Assembly (NCBI GenBank): GCA_013695765.1
Contig: JACCZW010000095.1
Location: 1-39,611, forward strand
Source: Gammaproteobacteria bacterium
GTDB taxonomy: Bacteria; Pseudomonadota; Gammaproteobacteria; JACCYU01
Length of the DNA stretch: 39,611 nt
Direction: 5' to 3'
Part shown: positions 11,766 to 39,611 of the stretch, one piece after another
How positions within the stretch are numbered: position 1 is the first letter of the stretch
How the letters are laid out: each line of letters opens with the position of its first letter
Position numbers and translations under genes: made by a program
Notes under the pieces: model-generated
Seen by the model: only the letters and a program-made list of their open reading frames with translations
The model's database searches: none
What the model was told of the DNA's origin: nothing

Positions 11766-12255
11766 TTCGCCAGCCGCGCAAGGAACTGGTTCAAGGATGA
11801 CGAGTTGGAATTCCGCAAGACGATCACACGCTATGTCACCGTGGCGCGTAAGCGGCTTCAGCTCATTGAACGACTGCGGGAGTCCGATCGCCGCAAGGAC
11901 GAGGCGCTCGAGGAGCTATTGGTTGTAAACAGCGAGCTGGATCGAAGAGTGCTCGACCGTACCCGTATAGCCGACAAACGCGCCACTCAACTGCGCGCGC
12001 TGGCCTCCGAGCCACGTTGGCCGAGGACCGGAAGCAGCAGAATCTCGCCGCCAATCTGCACGATTCCATGGCGTAGTATCTGATCCTGGCCACATTCAAA
12101 CTCGCCGGCCGGGAACCATCCATCAAGGACGAGGGTATACAGCAGGCGGTGCGGAGCGTCACGAAAGTGCTGAGCCAAGCTAGCGAGTCGGGGCGCTCGC
12201 ATATTTTGCCTTGAGCATGCTGTACTGAAAGACCTGGGTCTGACCAAGGCACTGT
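11766..12255 (+). pseudogene. Decayed sensor histidine kinase fragment (HisKA_3 type)
   Basis: An open frame from 11766 without a start codon gives a coiled-coil linker (RYVTVARKRLQLIERLRESD, DRTRIADKRATQLRALASE). After a frameshift near 12011 it continues ATLAEDRKQQNLAANLHDSM, the dimerisation/phosphoacceptor box of NarX/DesK-type kinases with the phosphorylatable histidine. A TAG at 12074-12076 stands where a Gln codon is usual, then KDEGIQQAVRSVTKVLSQAS, a stop at 12212, and a last shifted piece LKDLGLTKAL. The order matches the HisKA_3 domain; no ATPase domain follows. The gene is therefore truncated at both ends and broken at least four times. Confidence 0.75.
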
Positions 12256-12429
12256 AATCGCTTAAATGAATGCACAACACCGAGTTCGCGATTTCGGCGC
12301 AAGCCGGACAAAATCGTCTGGAACGATTTTGAAAAGTTTTGGCTGGCCCGTTTGGACGCACACGTGGACGCGAGACGAACGTAACGTGCATGCTGAGCTG
12401 AAGACAGGATAATCCTGAAACCTCGCCCT

Positions 12430-13401
12430 TCAGCGCGACGCGCGTTCATGTTCGGCCAATAACGCCTGTATCTGTTCGATATCGGCTTTCGGCAACGTCT
12501 TGTCGCCGGCCTTGACCGTCTCTTCGATCTGTCGCGGGCGGCGGGCGCCGACGATTGCGGCGGTGATTTCCGGCCTTCGCAACACCCAGGCGATCGCCAG
12601 TTGGCCCGTGCTCAGGTCGTTGCGCTCCGCGATGGGCTTAAGCTGCTCGATCAGTTTCAGGTTGGCGCTTAAAAGCGGCTCCTTGAACTGATCGCTGCCG
12701 CGTCGCCAGTCTTCTTTGGCCAGCGCGTCGATTTTTTCGCGCGTGTATTTGCCCGTTAGCAGACCGGCTTTCATCGGGCTGTAGGCGATCACACCGATAT
12801 TATGGGCCGCGCAGTATTCCAGTAAATTGTCCTCCACACCGCGTTCGAGCATGCTGTAAGGCGGCTGCAACGAGGCCACCGGATGGATTTTTTGGATGCG
12901 CTCAAGCTGCGCCACCGTGAAATTCGATACACCCGCGTAGCGCACCTTGCCCTCATCGATCAGCTTGGCGATGGTGTTCCATGCTTCCTCGACGTTCTCA
13001 TCGGGATTGGGCCAGTGCACCTGGTATAAATCGATCGTGTCGATATCGAGGCGCTTGAGGCTGGCCTCAAGCTCTTCTCGTACGCTGGCGGCGTCTAGCT
13101 GGCCGAACGGCGTGGTGCCGCCCTCTTCCCAGCGCAGCCCGCACTTGGTCGCGACGATAACCTGATCGCGACGCCCGGCAATGGCCTTTGCGACCACCTC
13201 TTCCGCGTGGCCCAGGCCATAAATCGCGGCCGTATCGATCCAGTTGACACCTAAATCGAGCGCGCGCTGAATGGCGGCGACGGATTCCTTGTCGTCCTGC
13301 GGACCCCAGCCAAAATCCCAGTCGCCGCCGCCAATTGCCCAGGTCCCCAGCCCCACTGTGGTGAATTCAAGTTCGCTGTCTCCAAGCTGACGTGTCTGCA
13401 T
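12430..13401 (-). CDS. Aldo/keto reductase
   Basis: A 323-residue cytoplasmic NAD(P)H-dependent oxidoreductase with a TIM barrel. The catalytic tetrad is complete: Asp56 and Tyr61 (WIDTAAIYGLG), Lys86 (ATKCG), His129 (YQVHWP). The YSPMKAGLLTGKY loop and the C-terminal IVGARRPRQIEE cofactor segment place it among the IolS/AKR11-like enzymes. The natural substrate cannot be told from sequence. It is transcribed alone, opposite to ispA and dxs, within the interval that separates them. Confidence 0.92.
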   Translation of the reverse strand: MQTRQLGDSELEFTTVGLGTWAIGGGDWDFGWGPQDDKESVAAIQRALDLGVNWIDTAAIYGLGHAEEVVAKAIAGRRDQVIVATKCGLRWEEGGTTPFGQLDAASVREELEASLKRLDIDTIDLYQVHWPNPDENVEEAWNTIAKLIDEGKVRYAGVSNFTVAQLERIQKIHPVASLQPPYSMLERGVEDNLLEYCAAHNIGVIAYSPMKAGLLTGKYTREKIDALAKEDWRRGSDQFKEPLLSANLKLIEQLKPIAERNDLSTGQLAIAWVLRRPEITAAIVGARRPRQIEETVKAGDKTLPKADIEQIQALLAEHERASR

Positions 13402-13536
13402 ATCGTGTTCACTCCAGAGTTAAAAACCAAATGGGTTACTTACCGGCCTTAAAATCAACGAACTGAGCAACCGGCGTGCCACGCTTTGCCCACGACGTTG
13501 CGCGGCGTGTTGCTCGTATCCTTTGCGCGCCCCTAA

Positions 13537-13566
13537 GACGACGCGTTATGGGACGACGCGTTATGG
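13537..13566. repeat. Perfect 15-bp tandem duplication at the 3' end of the DUF4197 gene
   Basis: GACGACGCGTTATGG occurs twice in direct succession, at 13537-13551 and 13552-13566. The second copy contains the stop codon of the DUF4197 gene (TTA on the plus strand at 13561-13563). Because the unit is five codons long, the first copy repeats the stop in the same phase. Confidence 0.9.
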
Positions 13567-14334
13567 CTTGCCAAAGACCTTCTTCAGAATATCGGTGGTG
13601 CGCTTGGCCGGGTCTTGCCGGATCGCCGCTTCCTCTTTAGCAAGATAGTAGAAGATGCCGCCGATGCCCTCGCTCACCACATACTCGGAGAGATCCGCCT
13701 TGACATCGGGTGCGAACGGCACGTTCTGGTAGCGCGACATGACCTTGTCGTAGGCGGCGATCGCGCCAACTTGCGAAAGGCTTTCGGACACGACAGGTGA
13801 CATTTCCGCGGTCAGCGGCGCCGACATTTTGTCCTCGAAATAGCGGGTCGCGGCATCGTCGGGCCCGCTGTAAACGGCTTGCGCGTCTTCCAGGGTCATT
13901 TGCTGGATGGATTGCAGGAAGAGCGCCTTGGCCTTGGGCGTGGCGGCCTCGGCCGCGCGGTTGAGCTTCAGTTCCAGATCGTCGAGCATCGAACCCATGC
14001 CAACGGTATCCAGAGTTGCCTTAACCGTATCCAGACTCTGCGGCAACGGAATGTGAATGGCCGGATCGCTGTTGAAGCCGCCGGTCTGCCCAAGCTGACT
14101 GACCACCGTCTCGGTACCAACGCGCAAGGCCTCCTTCAGGCCCGCCCGTAGCTCGTCGGCCCCCAGTTGCGCGCCGCCGGATTCGTCTCCCGCTAGTCCG
14201 CCAATTAAGTCCTGGCCCTTTTCCAGCCAGCCGGCGCGCAGAGGGCCGCTGGCAACGGCGTACATGGCTATAGTCGCCAGCAACAGGGTCATCGCTGTCC
14301 GTCGGCACGGTTTTACATTTTCATACTGACTCAT
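13561..14334 (-). CDS. DUF4197 domain-containing exported protein
   Basis: A 257-residue protein with an N-terminal signal sequence (TLLLATIAMYAVASGPLRAG) and a DUF4197 body. Recognisable family features are LKEALRVGTETVVSQLGQTG near the start, PLPQSL, the central AKALFLQSIQQMTLEDAQAV with the GPDDAATRYFE segment, and a C-terminal GIFYYLAKEEAAIRQDP. The fold is largely helical and the function is unknown; export to the periplasm is inferred from the signal. A 15-bp tandem duplication covers its stop codon. It follows no operon partner; the next gene in the same direction (aldo/keto reductase) is 159 bases downstream. Confidence 0.88.
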   Translation of the reverse strand: MSQYENVKPCRRTAMTLLLATIAMYAVASGPLRAGWLEKGQDLIGGLAGDESGGAQLGADELRAGLKEALRVGTETVVSQLGQTGGFNSDPAIHIPLPQSLDTVKATLDTVGMGSMLDDLELKLNRAAEAATPKAKALFLQSIQQMTLEDAQAVYSGPDDAATRYFEDKMSAPLTAEMSPVVSESLSQVGAIAAYDKVMSRYQNVPFAPDVKADLSEYVVSEGIGGIFYYLAKEEAAIRQDPAKRTTDILKKVFGKP

Positions 14335-14688
14335 CCATCCTCCTTATCTGGCAGCGTCCGGTCTTTAAGTTTTACACATCGCATGCGACCGGCCGGGCTT
14401 GCGCGGGTTCAACACCTATAGTCCTCCGGTGCGGGCGTTTGCGCGTTCGCGTGTGGTAACGCCGCCATACGACTCGCGCCGCCGCGCGAAGCACCGCAAA
14501 CCGTATTAACGCTTTTTGTTCCAGGACGCGGTGCTCAAATCGGCATCGGCATGTTCCCGCAGGTCGCCACTTATGGGACGTTCGTCTTGACCATCGGTTT
14601 TTGCCGGGCATCCATCCCGCCAGCGCTTATGGCGTCCCGGTCGGCACGCTAATCTCTCCCAACTAAATAAACCACTTAGGGATTAGTG
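14335..14688. other. Divergent intergenic region, no gene seen
   Basis: These 354 bases separate the DUF4197 gene (minus) from the beta-barrel gene (plus). No reading frame resembles a known protein on either strand. They should hold the promoters of both genes, but I see no convincing -35/-10 pair. Confidence 0.5.
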
Positions 14689-16365
14689 ATGATCACAAGC
14701 CTGACAAGGACGCCGACGCCGCGGCGCGCTGTTGCCGACTCAATCCGCGCGCAGAAACTAATTGTCGCAGGTTTGAATGTAACCCGCGCATGCACTATTG
14801 CACTGACCGCGCTGAACTTATCAGCGCCGGCACAGGCCTACACGCCGGTCGCAACCGCCGCGAAGTCGGCACCTGCGGACAAGTCATCCTCTACCCCCGA
14901 ATTCCTGACCAATTTACGTAGGATGCCACGACTGCCAACTTTCGCAACACGCTCCACCACGAACGCTGGCGACAGCATCGATACCAATGATCGGAATTTC
15001 GACGGGCCGCTGTACTGGCAGGAACGAAATTCAAGCTATGGGGCGGTACAGTTCGAAGGCACACGCAGCCCTGCTAGCCCGCTGCCGGACCAGGGTCAGC
15101 CGGTCGATCACTTCTCCATGCATCAGGAAGGTCTGGTGTTCAACGATACGTGGCGGATGGACAGTGCGATTGGCGAGCAACGCACTCACACGTTGCCTAT
15201 GGTGGGATCTGGCTATCGCTATTCTTTGCCCGAAACGGGGTTGCTGGGCGTTACGACGCGCAGCTACGCCAAAGACACGGAGTTCAACTGGACGGCTGGA
15301 CAGGCCGGCTCTGTTGGGGGCCGCAAGATCAAGTCGTTCGAAACGACCTCCGGACAGGTATCCGGTTTCAGCGGCCGCCAGAACCTTAACGACAACTGGC
15401 GCTTAGGTGGACAAGCCTGGATGGTGGAGGGCGATGCTAAGGATGCAGCACAACGCAACCTCGGCGGTGCTCTCGAATACCTGAGTCCGAACAGAAATCA
15501 CCGGCAGACCATGCACGTCGCCCAGGACAGCCAGGATCACATGGGTTCATGGCTGGACAGCGATAACCATCTTGGCGCATGGCGTCAACGGTTCGGCGTT
15601 TATCGTTTCGATCCGAAGTTAAAGTGGGTAAACAAGAAGATGGACGATGACCGCGAAGGCGTTTACTGGCGGACCGATCACGAGAGCCGTCACACCGGCT
15701 GGTTTACCGGGGTGGAAGCGGAAAAAACGAACGTGTACGCCAACCCGAAAACTGCGGGGCTGCTAAAGACTTTCGCCTTCGTCGGCATTGAGCAGCAGCT
15801 CAACTCGGCGACTCGCATCGGCGGCAACTTTCGCTATGGAATCGAGCGCCCCGGAGTTGGCAAGCCATCGTCAATAGCGCACATCCGCAAGCTCAAAACG
15901 TTTCTGGAACGCCAACTGCCCATCGGCATAAGCCGCTTTGGCGCGCTCTTGGTCGAGCGGACTTCGCGGCAGCGCCCCGAACAGCAGGTCGGCGTCTTCT
16001 GGGATCAGGCGTGGCTGCAAAATGACACCGAACGTTTCAAGACCTCGATGGGAGTCACGCGTATTACCCGCGAGACGTTTATGGTCCCATCGACCGGATT
16101 CAAGCTAAAATATTCCCTAACCCGCCAGTTCGCACTCGAAGGGGCAATGCGCTATTTATGGCAGAACACAGGCGACCGCCAGGAAGACGCGTCCAGTTAC
16201 ATGTCAATGGGCGCCAGTTGGGCGGCCTTCCCTGCCTGGCTAGTCAGCTTAAACGGTCGCTGGGACGGCGACGTGGTCCAGGCCGATGAGGCGAACCGCG
16301 ATCTGCTCAACCGCGTTTACTTGACCATCGCCTATCAGCCGCGCGGTAACGCATACGCCGAATAG
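14689..16365 (+). CDS. Predicted outer-membrane beta-barrel protein, unknown family
   Basis: A 558-residue protein with a long N-terminus and hydrophobic stretch (ACTIALTALNLSAPAQA) suitable for signal-peptidase cleavage after AQA. The mature part is rich in alternating aromatic/polar residues and short turns: LGVTTRSYAKDTEFNW, NWRLGGQAWMVEG, WTGVEAEKTNVY-like strands, FAFVGIEQQL, TRIGGNFRYGIE, RFGALLVERTS, FKTSMGVTRIT, FALEGAMRYLW, WLVSLNGRWDG, VYLTIAYQPRG. This pattern suits a barrel with many strands. It ends NAYAE rather than in the terminal Phe common to Omp85 substrates. ATG 14689 is preferred to the GTG three bases earlier; AGGG lies upstream. I do not recognise the family, and no export or polysaccharide genes adjoin it. 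Confidence 0.65.
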   Translation: MITSLTRTPTPRRAVADSIRAQKLIVAGLNVTRACTIALTALNLSAPAQAYTPVATAAKSAPADKSSSTPEFLTNLRRMPRLPTFATRSTTNAGDSIDTNDRNFDGPLYWQERNSSYGAVQFEGTRSPASPLPDQGQPVDHFSMHQEGLVFNDTWRMDSAIGEQRTHTLPMVGSGYRYSLPETGLLGVTTRSYAKDTEFNWTAGQAGSVGGRKIKSFETTSGQVSGFSGRQNLNDNWRLGGQAWMVEGDAKDAAQRNLGGALEYLSPNRNHRQTMHVAQDSQDHMGSWLDSDNHLGAWRQRFGVYRFDPKLKWVNKKMDDDREGVYWRTDHESRHTGWFTGVEAEKTNVYANPKTAGLLKTFAFVGIEQQLNSATRIGGNFRYGIERPGVGKPSSIAHIRKLKTFLERQLPIGISRFGALLVERTSRQRPEQQVGVFWDQAWLQNDTERFKTSMGVTRITRETFMVPSTGFKLKYSLTRQFALEGAMRYLWQNTGDRQEDASSYMSMGASWAAFPAWLVSLNGRWDGDVVQADEANRDLLNRVYLTIAYQPRGNAYAE

Positions 16366-33410: not shown

Positions 33411-33685
33411 TTACCGACCTCTGTTCCAGTCGTCCTTGTGAGCAGCGAAGCGAAGTGCCAATCCAGTAACTATATGATACAGCGGAAATTGTTACTGCTT
33501 CAGCGTGCTCGATATGACGGCTACGGCGACTTGTTCAGCGCCTCCTTGCACCCTGGGTCTGCCAGCGATTCGGCGCGATGGGGCATGATTATTGAATGAT
33601 TCGATGGTATCCTGCGTCCGGTTCGCACCGCGTCCACAATGGCGCTATCCCATTCGCTTACGCTTTCAACGGAGACTCCTGCGCT

Positions 33686-34198
33686 ATGCCCGACTACGAC
33701 ACCCCGAAGCAACCTCAGAACCGCGATTCCCATACGAATACACAGGCATCGCAAGGTGCGCGGCGCACTGCGGACCAGGTCAAGCAGCAAGCGCGCGATG
33801 CGGCGCAACAGGCGAAGACGCAAGCCGACTCCATGCTGGGCGAGCAGCAGCAGGCCGCGGCCGGTCAGTTGCAAGGCGTGGCGAAGGCCTTAAGAAAAAC
33901 CGCGGAGCAACTGGATTCGCAGGATCAAGGCCCCGTGGCACGTTACGCGGAACGCGCCGCGGATAGCCTGGACAGCCTCGGTGATAAATTGCGTGATCGC
34001 GACATCGACAGTCTTGCAGCACAGGTACAGGATTTCGCGCGCCAGCAACCGGGCGTGTTTCTGGGCGGCGCCGTGGCGGCAGGCTTTCTGGTCGCGCGTT
34101 TTCTGAAAAGCTCGGCGCGTGATGAATCACCATCCAGCGCGCCCGGCGCATCTTACGGACAGTCCGATGCCGCGACTGACCCCGTAAGCACACCTTAG
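33686..34198 (+). CDS. YqjD/ElaB-like stress-type membrane-anchored protein
   Basis: 170 residues: a Gln/Ala-rich helical body (RTADQVKQQARDAAQQAKTQ, GEQQQAAAGQLQGVAKALRK, RDIDSLAAQVQDFARQQPGV) and one membrane anchor with the GAVAAGFLVARFLKS motif near the C-terminus. This layout (helical domain, glycine-rich tail anchor) is typical of the YqjD/ElaB/DUF883 group, inner-membrane proteins linked to stationary phase and ribosome binding in E. coli. The start at 33686 has GGAG upstream. It is the first gene of a three-gene cluster. Confidence 0.75.
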   Translation: MPDYDTPKQPQNRDSHTNTQASQGARRTADQVKQQARDAAQQAKTQADSMLGEQQQAAAGQLQGVAKALRKTAEQLDSQDQGPVARYAERAADSLDSLGDKLRDRDIDSLAAQVQDFARQQPGVFLGGAVAAGFLVARFLKSSARDESPSSAPGASYGQSDAATDPVSTP

Positions 34199-34210
34199 TA
34201 GGAGAGTCCG

Positions 34211-34624
34211 ATGCAATCAGACAAGCCAAATAAAGTAGACCGTTCGATAGGCGCGCTCATCAGGGATCTCACCTATGAGTTGACCTCGCTGGTGAGCAAG
34301 GAAGCCGAACTCGCGAAAGCCGAAGCGTCCGAAAAGGTATCGCAAGTCGGCGCCGGTATCGCAGCACTCGTGGTCGCCGCGGTCTTGCTGGTTGTGGGTC
34401 TGGAGGAATTGACGGACGCCGCGACTGTTGGAGTGGGCTATTTGCTGCCGCCGACCGTGGTGCCCTGGCTGGCGCCGCTGATAGTAGGCGGTGTCATCGC
34501 CATCATTGGTTTAATCCTCTTGATGAAGGGCCGCAGTAATCTTCAGCCGCAAAACCTGGCGCCCAACCGCACCACGGAATCGCTTCGTAAAGACAAAGCC
34601 GTGGCGCAGGAGCAGTTTAGATGA
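34211..34624 (+). CDS. Phage holin family / YqjE-like membrane protein
   Basis: A 137-residue protein: an amphipathic N-terminal region (GALIRDLTYELTSLVSKEAE, LAKAEASEKVSQVGAGIAAL) and two membrane helices (AALVVAAVLLVVGLEELT and WLAPLIVGGVIAIIGLILLM), the pattern of holin-X (PF07332)/YqjE proteins. In this family the second gene of a yqjD-yqjE-yqjK-like cluster. Its TGA overlaps the next ATG (ATGA, 34621-34624). No phage genes are nearby. Confidence 0.85.
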   Translation: MQSDKPNKVDRSIGALIRDLTYELTSLVSKEAELAKAEASEKVSQVGAGIAALVVAAVLLVVGLEELTDAATVGVGYLLPPTVVPWLAPLIVGGVIAIIGLILLMKGRSNLQPQNLAPNRTTESLRKDKAVAQEQFR

Positions 34625-35481
34625 GCAATAAATCACAATCGCGCAATTCCCCCCGCGACCCAAAAAAGATTGAGGCCGAGCTCGACCGTACTCGCGGTGA
34701 AATGAGCGAAACGCTGGATGCGCTCCAGGAAAAACTGGCACCCGGCTCGATGTTCGACGAGGCGGTGAACTATTTCCGCAACAGCGGCGGTGGCGAATTC
34801 GCCTCGAACTTCAAGCATTCGATAACGCAAAATCCAGTGCCCGTGACCCTGGTCGGCGTCGGCCTGGCGTGGCTGGCGCTGGCTGGCAGGGGCGGCGGGT
34901 CGTCGTCCGACATGTTTGATGAGAGTGACTATGACGATCCGTACCTTCACACGGAATATCCGGACGACTGGCCCGCGTCGCAGCCCGAAGGCCTGGAAGG
35001 AATATCCGGCGGCACCGCGCCCGGCGATGACGTCGCACCGGGTATGGCGCCAATCGGCACGGACCCTGATCAACCCGGCCGCATGAAACGCATGGCCAGC
35101 GGCGGGCGCGAGCGCATGCGTGGCGTCTCTCGCGGCGCGCGGCAGGGCATGTCGGGTGCTGGCGCAATGGGGCGGCGTCAGGCCGCTCGCGCAAAAAGCG
35201 GATTCGAACACATGCTGCACGAGCAGCCGCTGGTGCTGGGCGCCATTGGTGTGGCATTGGGCGCAGCACTTGCCGCCGGCTTGCCGGGAACCCGGCGCGA
35301 GGATGAACTGATGGGCGAGACGCGCGATCAGTTCATGGACAAGGCGCAGCACAAGGGTAAGGAACAGCTAGTCAAGGAAAAACAGGTCGCGAAATCGGCC
35401 GGCGATGCCGCGAAGAAGGAAGTCAAAAAGAAACCGGACGACACACAGCGGAACGCCTCGAACGAAGGTTCGTCCGGGTAG
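34621..35481 (+). CDS. DUF3618 domain-containing protein
   Basis: A 286-residue protein with the DUF3618 signature at its N-terminus (PKKIEAELDRTRGEMSETLD, ALQEKLAPG), a central membrane anchor (NPVPVTLVGVGLAWLAL), a long Gly/Met/Arg-rich middle and another anchor (VLGAIGVALGAALAAGLPGT), then a Lys-rich tail. This is the third gene of the cluster and is translationally coupled to the holin-like gene. Clusters of a YqjD-like protein, a holin-X protein and DUF3618 occur in several proteobacteria and are associated with envelope or starvation stress; here the role is inference. Confidence 0.88.
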   Translation: MSNKSQSRNSPRDPKKIEAELDRTRGEMSETLDALQEKLAPGSMFDEAVNYFRNSGGGEFASNFKHSITQNPVPVTLVGVGLAWLALAGRGGGSSSDMFDESDYDDPYLHTEYPDDWPASQPEGLEGISGGTAPGDDVAPGMAPIGTDPDQPGRMKRMASGGRERMRGVSRGARQGMSGAGAMGRRQAARAKSGFEHMLHEQPLVLGAIGVALGAALAAGLPGTRREDELMGETRDQFMDKAQHKGKEQLVKEKQVAKSAGDAAKKEVKKKPDDTQRNASNEGSSG

Positions 35482-38335: not shown

Positions 38336-39611
38336 TCAACGGCAGCTTCGCAACAAACCGCTTTCGATGAGCGCATCGCGCCACGTTTGCGCCATTCTCC
38401 TATAGCCCGCCGGGTTGGGATAAAGCGCGCCATGCAAGTCCGCCATGTCGTTCAGTGCGTGATCGATCACCATCACCTTGTGGGGCCCACTCACGGCGGT
38501 CTCACTCCCCGCCGCCATTGCCGCCAGTCCGTGGCTGAACTGCTGAAAGCCCGGTAAAGCAGCGAGCCTGCCGACCGGCGCGGCCACCACAACGGCAACG
38601 CGATTGCCGCCGGCGCTGGCTTGCCAGCGGGCGATCTCATCGAGGATCGCGACCAGGCCCGCGACGCCATCGGCGATATGGCCACGCTCGATCTGTAGCA
38701 GGACCACATCCGCCGGATGCGCTGACAGCCATCCGTAGATACCGTCCGTACCGTCTCCGCGCCGGCCGTAGGCGAGCTCGCTCAACGACCAGCCGGGGTG
38801 GGCCTCTTGATCTACGTCAGATTCCGTCACCCCAACAGCCGAAGCCGGGGACCCGACGAAGTCCACCCGGTACCCGTCTGCCGTCAGCAGATCGATCAGC
38901 GGTGGCCGGAAACCGCCGCGTCGCGCGGCGTTAACCACGCCGGCGGTGGTCGCGCCGCCCAGCGCCATCAACCGGGACTCGAACGTTAACCGTGCACTCC
39001 AGCGCGCCGTGTTACCCGCGCCGACGACTTCATACGTAAAGCGATCACTGACGCCCGGTGCGTCGCGATACGGCACGTACGCGTATTGCCCGATGAGCGC
39101 ATCGCGCAGGGACACGCTGCCATTGCGGCCGTCGCTCACCAGGCGATAAAGCCGTGGCCCAGCTGGTTGGGCAACGCCCGCGGACAAGTTTCCGACCGTC
39201 ATCTCCGTATTCGACACTACGCGGCAAATTTCGCCCGACGTACCCGCGGCCAGTACCGTAACCCGGGCCCGGTTGGACTTGAGTCCACGGTCGTCTTGCA
39301 CCGTGTAATAGAGCGCGTCGGAGAGGTCAGCGGTCGCTTTGTTCCGCACATAGCTCACCGTGCCATCCGCATTCGCCCACGCGATGCCGTTGCGCGGCTG
39401 TGTCACGATATCGATCGAAGCCGGATTCAAGCGCCCGCTAAACGCTACGTCGTTGCTCAACACGTCGATCATTATTGGCGTCGTCCCGCCGGTCGATTTG
39501 ACGGCTGCGGTGCGCATCGCGGTCAAGCTATTGGCCACGACGGCGGGGCTTCCACCGCCAACATCGGCGCCGGCATCGGGAGGCGGCCCCGGTGGTTGCT
39601 CGTCCGGCGGC
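38336..39611 (-). CDS. Surface protein with Ig/cadherin-like domains and a degenerate SGNH domain (N-terminus cut by window edge)
   Basis: The frame is open to the window end, so the protein continues upstream; 424 residues are visible. It begins with a Pro/Gly/Asp linker (PPDEQPPGPPPDAGAD), then two Ig/cadherin-like modules (IDVLSNDVAFSGRLNPASID with DGTVSYVRNKAT; SVSLRDALIGQYAYVPYRDA), then a C-terminal SGNH-hydrolase-type domain: GGATTAG for block I, VDFVGS, HPGW, DVVLLQIERGHI and NPAGYRRMAQTW for block V. The catalytic Ser, Asn and His positions are Ala, Gly and Tyr (see findings), so enzymatic activity is unlikely. The GTG at 39538 is internal. It is probably secreted or surface-attached. 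Confidence 0.8.
   Translation of the reverse strand, partial: PPDEQPPGPPPDAGADVGGGSPAVVANSLTAMRTAAVKSTGGTTPIMIDVLSNDVAFSGRLNPASIDIVTQPRNGIAWANADGTVSYVRNKATADLSDALYYTVQDDRGLKSNRARVTVLAAGTSGEICRVVSNTEMTVGNLSAGVAQPAGPRLYRLVSDGRNGSVSLRDALIGQYAYVPYRDAPGVSDRFTYEVVGAGNTARWSARLTFESRLMALGGATTAGVVNAARRGGFRPPLIDLLTADGYRVDFVGSPASAVGVTESDVDQEAHPGWSLSELAYGRRGDGTDGIYGWLSAHPADVVLLQIERGHIADGVAGLVAILDEIARWQASAGGNRVAVVVAAPVGRLAALPGFQQFSHGLAAMAAGSETAVSGPHKVMVIDHALNDMADLHGALYPNPAGYRRMAQTWRDALIESGLLRSCR

Follow-up and report, generated by a model that had tools for sequence, protein, structure and literature searches.

The window, a stretch of 39,611 nucleotides read from one gammaproteobacterial genome (G000), carries the 3' part of a probable lipoprotein gene whose C-terminal SGNH domain is derived from CE3 esterases and has lost all of its catalytic side chains. 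As read from the alignments, the catalytic loss is well supported, and it is old and shared with relatives in a second genus. The gene is under purifying selection. On balance, we favour the reading that the window protein would be a cell-surface pseudo-esterase, the old cleft of which binds polysaccharide without processing it.

Gene extent and architecture

The gene (38336..39611, reverse strand) was read as 424 codons in a frame that stays open to the contig edge. The initial annotation had placed its start at the GTG at 39538, which was not borne out: the true start codon lies outside the window, which is the entire contig G000:C95, and the frame exits inside a Pro-rich linker (PPDEQPPGPPPDAGADVGG; 39539..39611, reverse strand), the assembly break falling inside the repeat. 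The probable 5' part lies at the end of contig G000:C94 (10458-11180, forward strand), where a 241-codon open frame holds the lipobox LAAC|GFVDSGGSQ, PKD modules, and the same PPPPPDEP repeat as the window's linker, within which contig C94 terminates. In the congener G001, a linker of this kind likewise interrupts the gene, which is spread over contigs C157 and C226; the same RND gene lies upstream. The two independent assemblies both break in such a Pro-rich repeat, so the full gene is divided between contigs in both. The homolog L010, from the sister genus, is complete, having an intact lipobox and the parts in the same order.

From position, repeat, and synteny, we infer that the C94 and C95 parts belong to a single lipoprotein whose length is 665 residues or more. 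The product is probably a cell-surface lipoprotein, of which the window holds the C-terminal half, and it would be placed at the outer surface. The probable full order is lipobox, PKD/Ig modules, Pro-rich linker, two Ig-like modules, and the C-terminal CE3-derived SGNH domain. Residues are numbered below from the GTG at 39538, although this codon is not the gene's start.

Ig-like module 1 (39254..39496, reverse strand; residues 15-95) matched Big_9 (Pfam PF17963, E=1.1e-11). Ig/cadherin-like module 2 (38978..39247, reverse strand), a weaker second Big_9 or tandem-95 stretch detected at a relaxed threshold, contains Cys105, which pairs by position with the C-terminal Cys399 in most homologs. 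The SGNH domain, without its catalytic residues, occupies 38339..38977 (reverse strand) and was matched to 2vpt both by sequence and by AlphaFold2/Foldseek. The span of 38336-39170 given for it earlier holds for approximately 38339-38977, and the boundary at 39170 does not, as it includes part of the second Ig-like module.

Identity of the domain

A phmmer search of the window domain against the PDB returned a single match, the CE3 esterase 2vpt (E=1.1e-7), and a profile built from five relatives recovered 2vpt (2e-13) together with the CE3 enzyme of 5b5l/5b5s (5e-7). The domain was modelled with AlphaFold2 (pLDDT 82.1, pTM 0.84) from an input of 21 homologs from viral contigs, almost all of which retain the catalytic motifs. 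Foldseek ranked 2vpt first for this model (E=2.9e-11, TM 0.72/0.79), followed by other CE3 structures. An alpha/beta/alpha SGNH fold is thus predicted for the window domain, and the fold proposed in the initial annotation agrees with both the sequence matches to 2vpt and the match of the model to active CE3 structures. Such SGNH domains are also encoded on 22 IMG/VR viral contigs (L109-L130), of which 21 were aligned, nearly all with catalytic motifs.

Pfam Lipase_GDSL and Lipase_GDSL_2 detected no SGNH domain in the window protein. Against their cut-off of 32.9, the half-degenerate paralog C103 scored 19.1 bits, and the intact L031 and L011 scored 40.2 and 48.7. Since dead members are invisible to Pfam, surface proteins that combine Ig modules with a dead SGNH domain are probably under-annotated.

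Loss of catalytic residues

The motif blocks all lie on the reverse strand. Block I (38945..38959) reads GGATT (194-198) in place of GDSIT, with Ala196 for Ser; block III (38678..38689) reads ERGH (284-287) in place of GTND, with Gly286 for Asn; and block V (38414..38431) reads GALYPN (370-375) in place of D..HPN, with Gly370 for Asp and Tyr373 for His. These are the substitutions that had been listed from the sequence at the outset, in the same numbering. The Ser196, Asn286, and His373 columns, which hold Ala, Gly, and Tyr in the window, are 100% conserved in 34 intact homologs, a reference set made up of the domains retaining Ser, Asn, and His. Gly284 and Thr285 of block III, at 100% in the same 34 homologs, are gone from the window domain, and the Ile of GDSIT and the His before GTND are also substituted. 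Block II (38849..38863) reads DFVGS and retains the oxyanion-hole Gly229, likewise at 100% in the intact set. With the nucleophile, the acid-base dyad, and the oxyanion Asn lost, the domain should not hydrolyse esters.

The ortholog in G001 is 75% identical over the gene and has the same residues as the window at 196, 286, and 373, and the homolog in G002 has Gly, Lys, and Tyr in the Ser196, Asn286, and His373 columns. The congener ortholog and the sister-genus homolog are also without Ser, Asn, Asp, and His, and the loss of catalytic residues by which a pseudoenzyme is recognised is conserved across these three homologs from two genera (clade A). The initial annotation had named homologs with the same losses as support for a non-catalytic role, and they were found in a second species, with the same residues, and in a second genus. 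Although intact homologs exist, the window copy does not derive from recent mutation of any of them; a recent mutation or an assembly error was ruled out by the occurrence of the same residues in an independent congener genome.

Of the 38 columns whose conservation in the intact set reaches 85% or more, clade A has lost 10 (S196, I197, G246, H282, G284, T285, N286, I322, V358, and H373), six of them in the motifs of blocks I, III, and V. Structural motifs persist, with Gly194, Thr198, Arg211, DFVG, Pro374, Gly378, and Trp386 retained.

It is highly improbable that the domain is still an enzyme, for instance one that uses His369 or His360 with the Thr of GATT, or one whose cleft now supports another chemistry. 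In favour of such an activity, all three clade A homologs conserve His360 and His369, which are rare in or missing from the intact set, and Thr198 is retained; however, every intact enzyme likewise conserves Thr198, which therefore does not qualify as a new nucleophile, and neither the oxyanion Asn nor the block III Gly remains. No new conserved Ser specific to clade A was found in the alignment against the intact homologs. A replacement Ser/His pair, put forward at the outset as grounds for rejecting the non-catalytic reading, thus appears to be lacking its Ser, with the alignment offering two clade-specific His.

Selection

Omega was estimated for G000 versus G001 using NG86 with a codon bootstrap. 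The values were 0.35 for the SGNH domain (95% CI 0.24-0.53), 0.24 for the second Ig module (0.12-0.43), 0.18 for the N-terminal part (0.11-0.27), and 0.73 for the first Ig module (0.39-1.42), where the interval spans 1. The SGNH domain of the paralog gave 0.19 (0.11-0.35), the Ugd control gave 0.09, and most neighbouring genes fell at about 0.08-0.2, below the window gene, which indicates weaker constraint on the latter. That the window protein is kept by purifying selection, weaker than that on its neighbours but real, is well supported, and the initial view of a conserved fold under selection rather than a decaying gene is upheld by the SGNH value and its interval, which lie below 1.

Relaxed selection with slow decay after catalysis was lost is improbable as an explanation of these values. 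It would account for an omega of 0.35-0.39 that exceeds most neighbours, for the interval of the first Ig module including 1, and for a 7-residue deletion in the window copy relative to its ortholog, but frames are open in all three clade A members, the intervals for the SGNH domain, the second Ig module, and the N-terminal part exclude 1, and the signal and the Cys pair are retained.

No significant excess of conservation was found at the former active site, where, with a flank of 6, the observed value was reached by 43 of 220 shifts for the congener pair and by 39 of 220 shifts for all three homologs. Given this negative test, some weight has to be left for a purely structural role, in which the domain would act as a module for structure or protein interaction: it would cap the Ig-type surface lipoprotein as a folded unit, and its old cleft would bind no glycan. 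Although the clustering of relatives in polysaccharide loci (see below) argues against such a cap, and the Ig modules alone would be enough as a scaffold, it would fit an old pocket without special conservation, a near-universal Cys pair (one Cys upstream of the domain and one C-terminal) in intact and degenerate members, and Ig modules that are typical adhesin parts. We regard it as unlikely, though a reading to be taken seriously.

An apparent region of omega >1 at 14686-16365 was traced to stops in the copy of the congener and rejected as artefactual. This part of the window encodes a putative 559-aa protein with no Pfam match. In the congener copy of the gene (G001:C226, near 12243-13928), the N-terminal third is interrupted by in-frame stops and contains out-of-frame text, a pattern that suggests compensating frameshifts or a broken copy.

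Relatives at different stages of loss

Searching 369 genomes of the class together with targeted families yielded 47 SGNH domains. The subfamily is rare outside the class: a phylum-wide survey of 399 genomes added just two further weak matches. A scan of the genome collection returned Ig-type matches alone, in Pseudoalteromonas (L003-L007) and in an Opitutales MAG (L008).

Asn is absent in 13 of the 47 domains, Ser is also absent in 10 of those 13, and His is also absent in six of those 10, the Asn-, Ser-, and His-less sets being perfectly nested. At the Ser, Asn, and His positions, the paralog C103 has S/E/H and its congener ortholog C57 has A/E/H. A genus-level group in XrtA-type loci has Gln for Asn in 5/5 members, which differ in whether Ser and His are still present. 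The tandem pair of G197, two adjacent large lipoprotein-like genes at 549-8151 of L095 (G197:C42), has Glu for Ser and His for Asn in both SGNH domains.

Clade A, the C103/C57 pair, and the XrtA group were each strongly supported in the tree. Ser-bearing sisters (C103 and G372) lie inside supported branches, which implies at least three separate Ser losses, barring reversal. A single clade of all degenerate members is compatible with the data (AU p=0.34), so that Asn loss may have happened once.

It is conceivable, though we would put it as less than probable, that SGNH esterase lipoproteins of polysaccharide loci have been repeatedly converted, in the fixed order Asn, Ser, His, into non-catalytic polysaccharide-binding surface proteins, which would then form a CE3-derived lectin family missed by domain databases, each step being represented by living intermediates. 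Homologs that are intact, half-eroded, or dead coexist, in some cases within a single genome, and the route by which an enzyme becomes a binding protein can thus be tested directly. To our knowledge, few natural pseudo-esterases have been described. A search of open-licence papers found no published pseudoenzyme or dead SGNH domain of CE3 type, and did find CE4 and CE2 cases of non-catalytic binding.

Genomic context and proposed function

Surroundings were read for about a dozen of the 47 relatives, and most of these, intact or degenerate, sit in polysaccharide export or biosynthesis loci. The degenerate gene G212_C36 is followed by genes for an XrtA-type export protein, a chain-length factor, a tyrosine kinase, and an ATPase, and is also adjoined by a Wzm/Wzt-like ABC transporter, these names being taken from NCBIfam matches mostly below cut-offs. 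The degenerate genes of G312, G372, and G373 are flanked by genes similar to those of G212, as judged by sequence likeness. The intact genes G206_C6, G102_C127, and G001_C8 are flanked by Wzm/Wzt-like transporter genes. The paralogs C103 and C57 adjoin Ugd, and C103 is also near WecA-like, Gmd, and glycosyltransferase genes. Four Ig-repeat lipoproteins of ~1200-1400 aa (L105 6848-10549, L143 7210-10905, L144 1952-6064, and L106 8960-12595) carry C-terminal degenerate SGNH domains and adjoin XrtA-type EPS export genes; Pfam saw no SGNH domain in L105, the one of the four that was scanned.

The window gene is flanked by a CusA-type RND pump (on C94) on one side and GATase/BCCT genes on the other. 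This is not a polysaccharide locus, and the context of the relatives therefore bears on the window gene indirectly. Elsewhere in the window, at 33596-35481, a row of three small genes encodes an unknown 200-aa protein, a Holin-X membrane protein (PF07332), and a DUF3618 protein, and is likely of envelope-stress type.

With relatives at several stages of loss found mostly beside polysaccharide-export genes, the window domain probably binds cell-surface polysaccharide. That context, together with precedent, raises the likelihood of the carbohydrate-binding or adhesion role that the initial annotation had offered as a possibility. For the pseudo-esterase proposed here, the Ig modules and linker would hold the old substrate cleft away from the membrane, the cleft would bind a polysaccharide chain that the cell makes or exports, leaving it unprocessed, and this binding could help retain the polysaccharide at the surface or help adhesion.

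Comparison with known systems

The window domain shares the SGNH fold and motif blocks with the CAZy CE3 acetyl(xylan) esterases CtCes3-1 (2vpt) and TcAE206 (5b5s, 5b5l), but differs from them in having Ser, Asn, Asp, and His replaced and in its C-terminal position on an Ig-type lipoprotein. It is described here as a CE3-derived homolog and not classed as a CE3 enzyme, because three defining features of the family were looked for and were absent. Ig-fused SGNH lipoproteins of the same class (L011, L023, L031, L096, L105, and others) have a homologous domain and the same Cys pair as the window protein, with Ig-like modules in most and a lipobox in many; many have the full SGNH set and several are partly degenerate. 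Where their surroundings were read, they lie mostly in polysaccharide loci, whereas the window gene does not.

Two functional precedents come from other esterase families. The CE2 domain of CtCel5C-CE2 (CtCE2), an SGNH carbohydrate esterase, also binds polysaccharide non-catalytically at its active site, and its Ser-to-Ala mutant S612A binds cellohexaose ~8x tighter than the wild type (PMC2661963). Unlike the window domain, CtCE2 belongs to CE2 and not CE3, keeps its Ser-His dyad and activity, and works in a setting of plant cell-wall degradation. The C-terminal domain of PgaB is a dead carbohydrate esterase, a CE4 pseudo-esterase that binds PNAG, the cell's own biofilm polysaccharide (PMC7828330). 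It differs from the window domain in being derived from CE4 rather than SGNH enzymes and in being fused to an active deacetylase domain. In function, the window domain would be most like a glycan-binding pseudo-esterase of the kind seen in PgaB and CtCE2.
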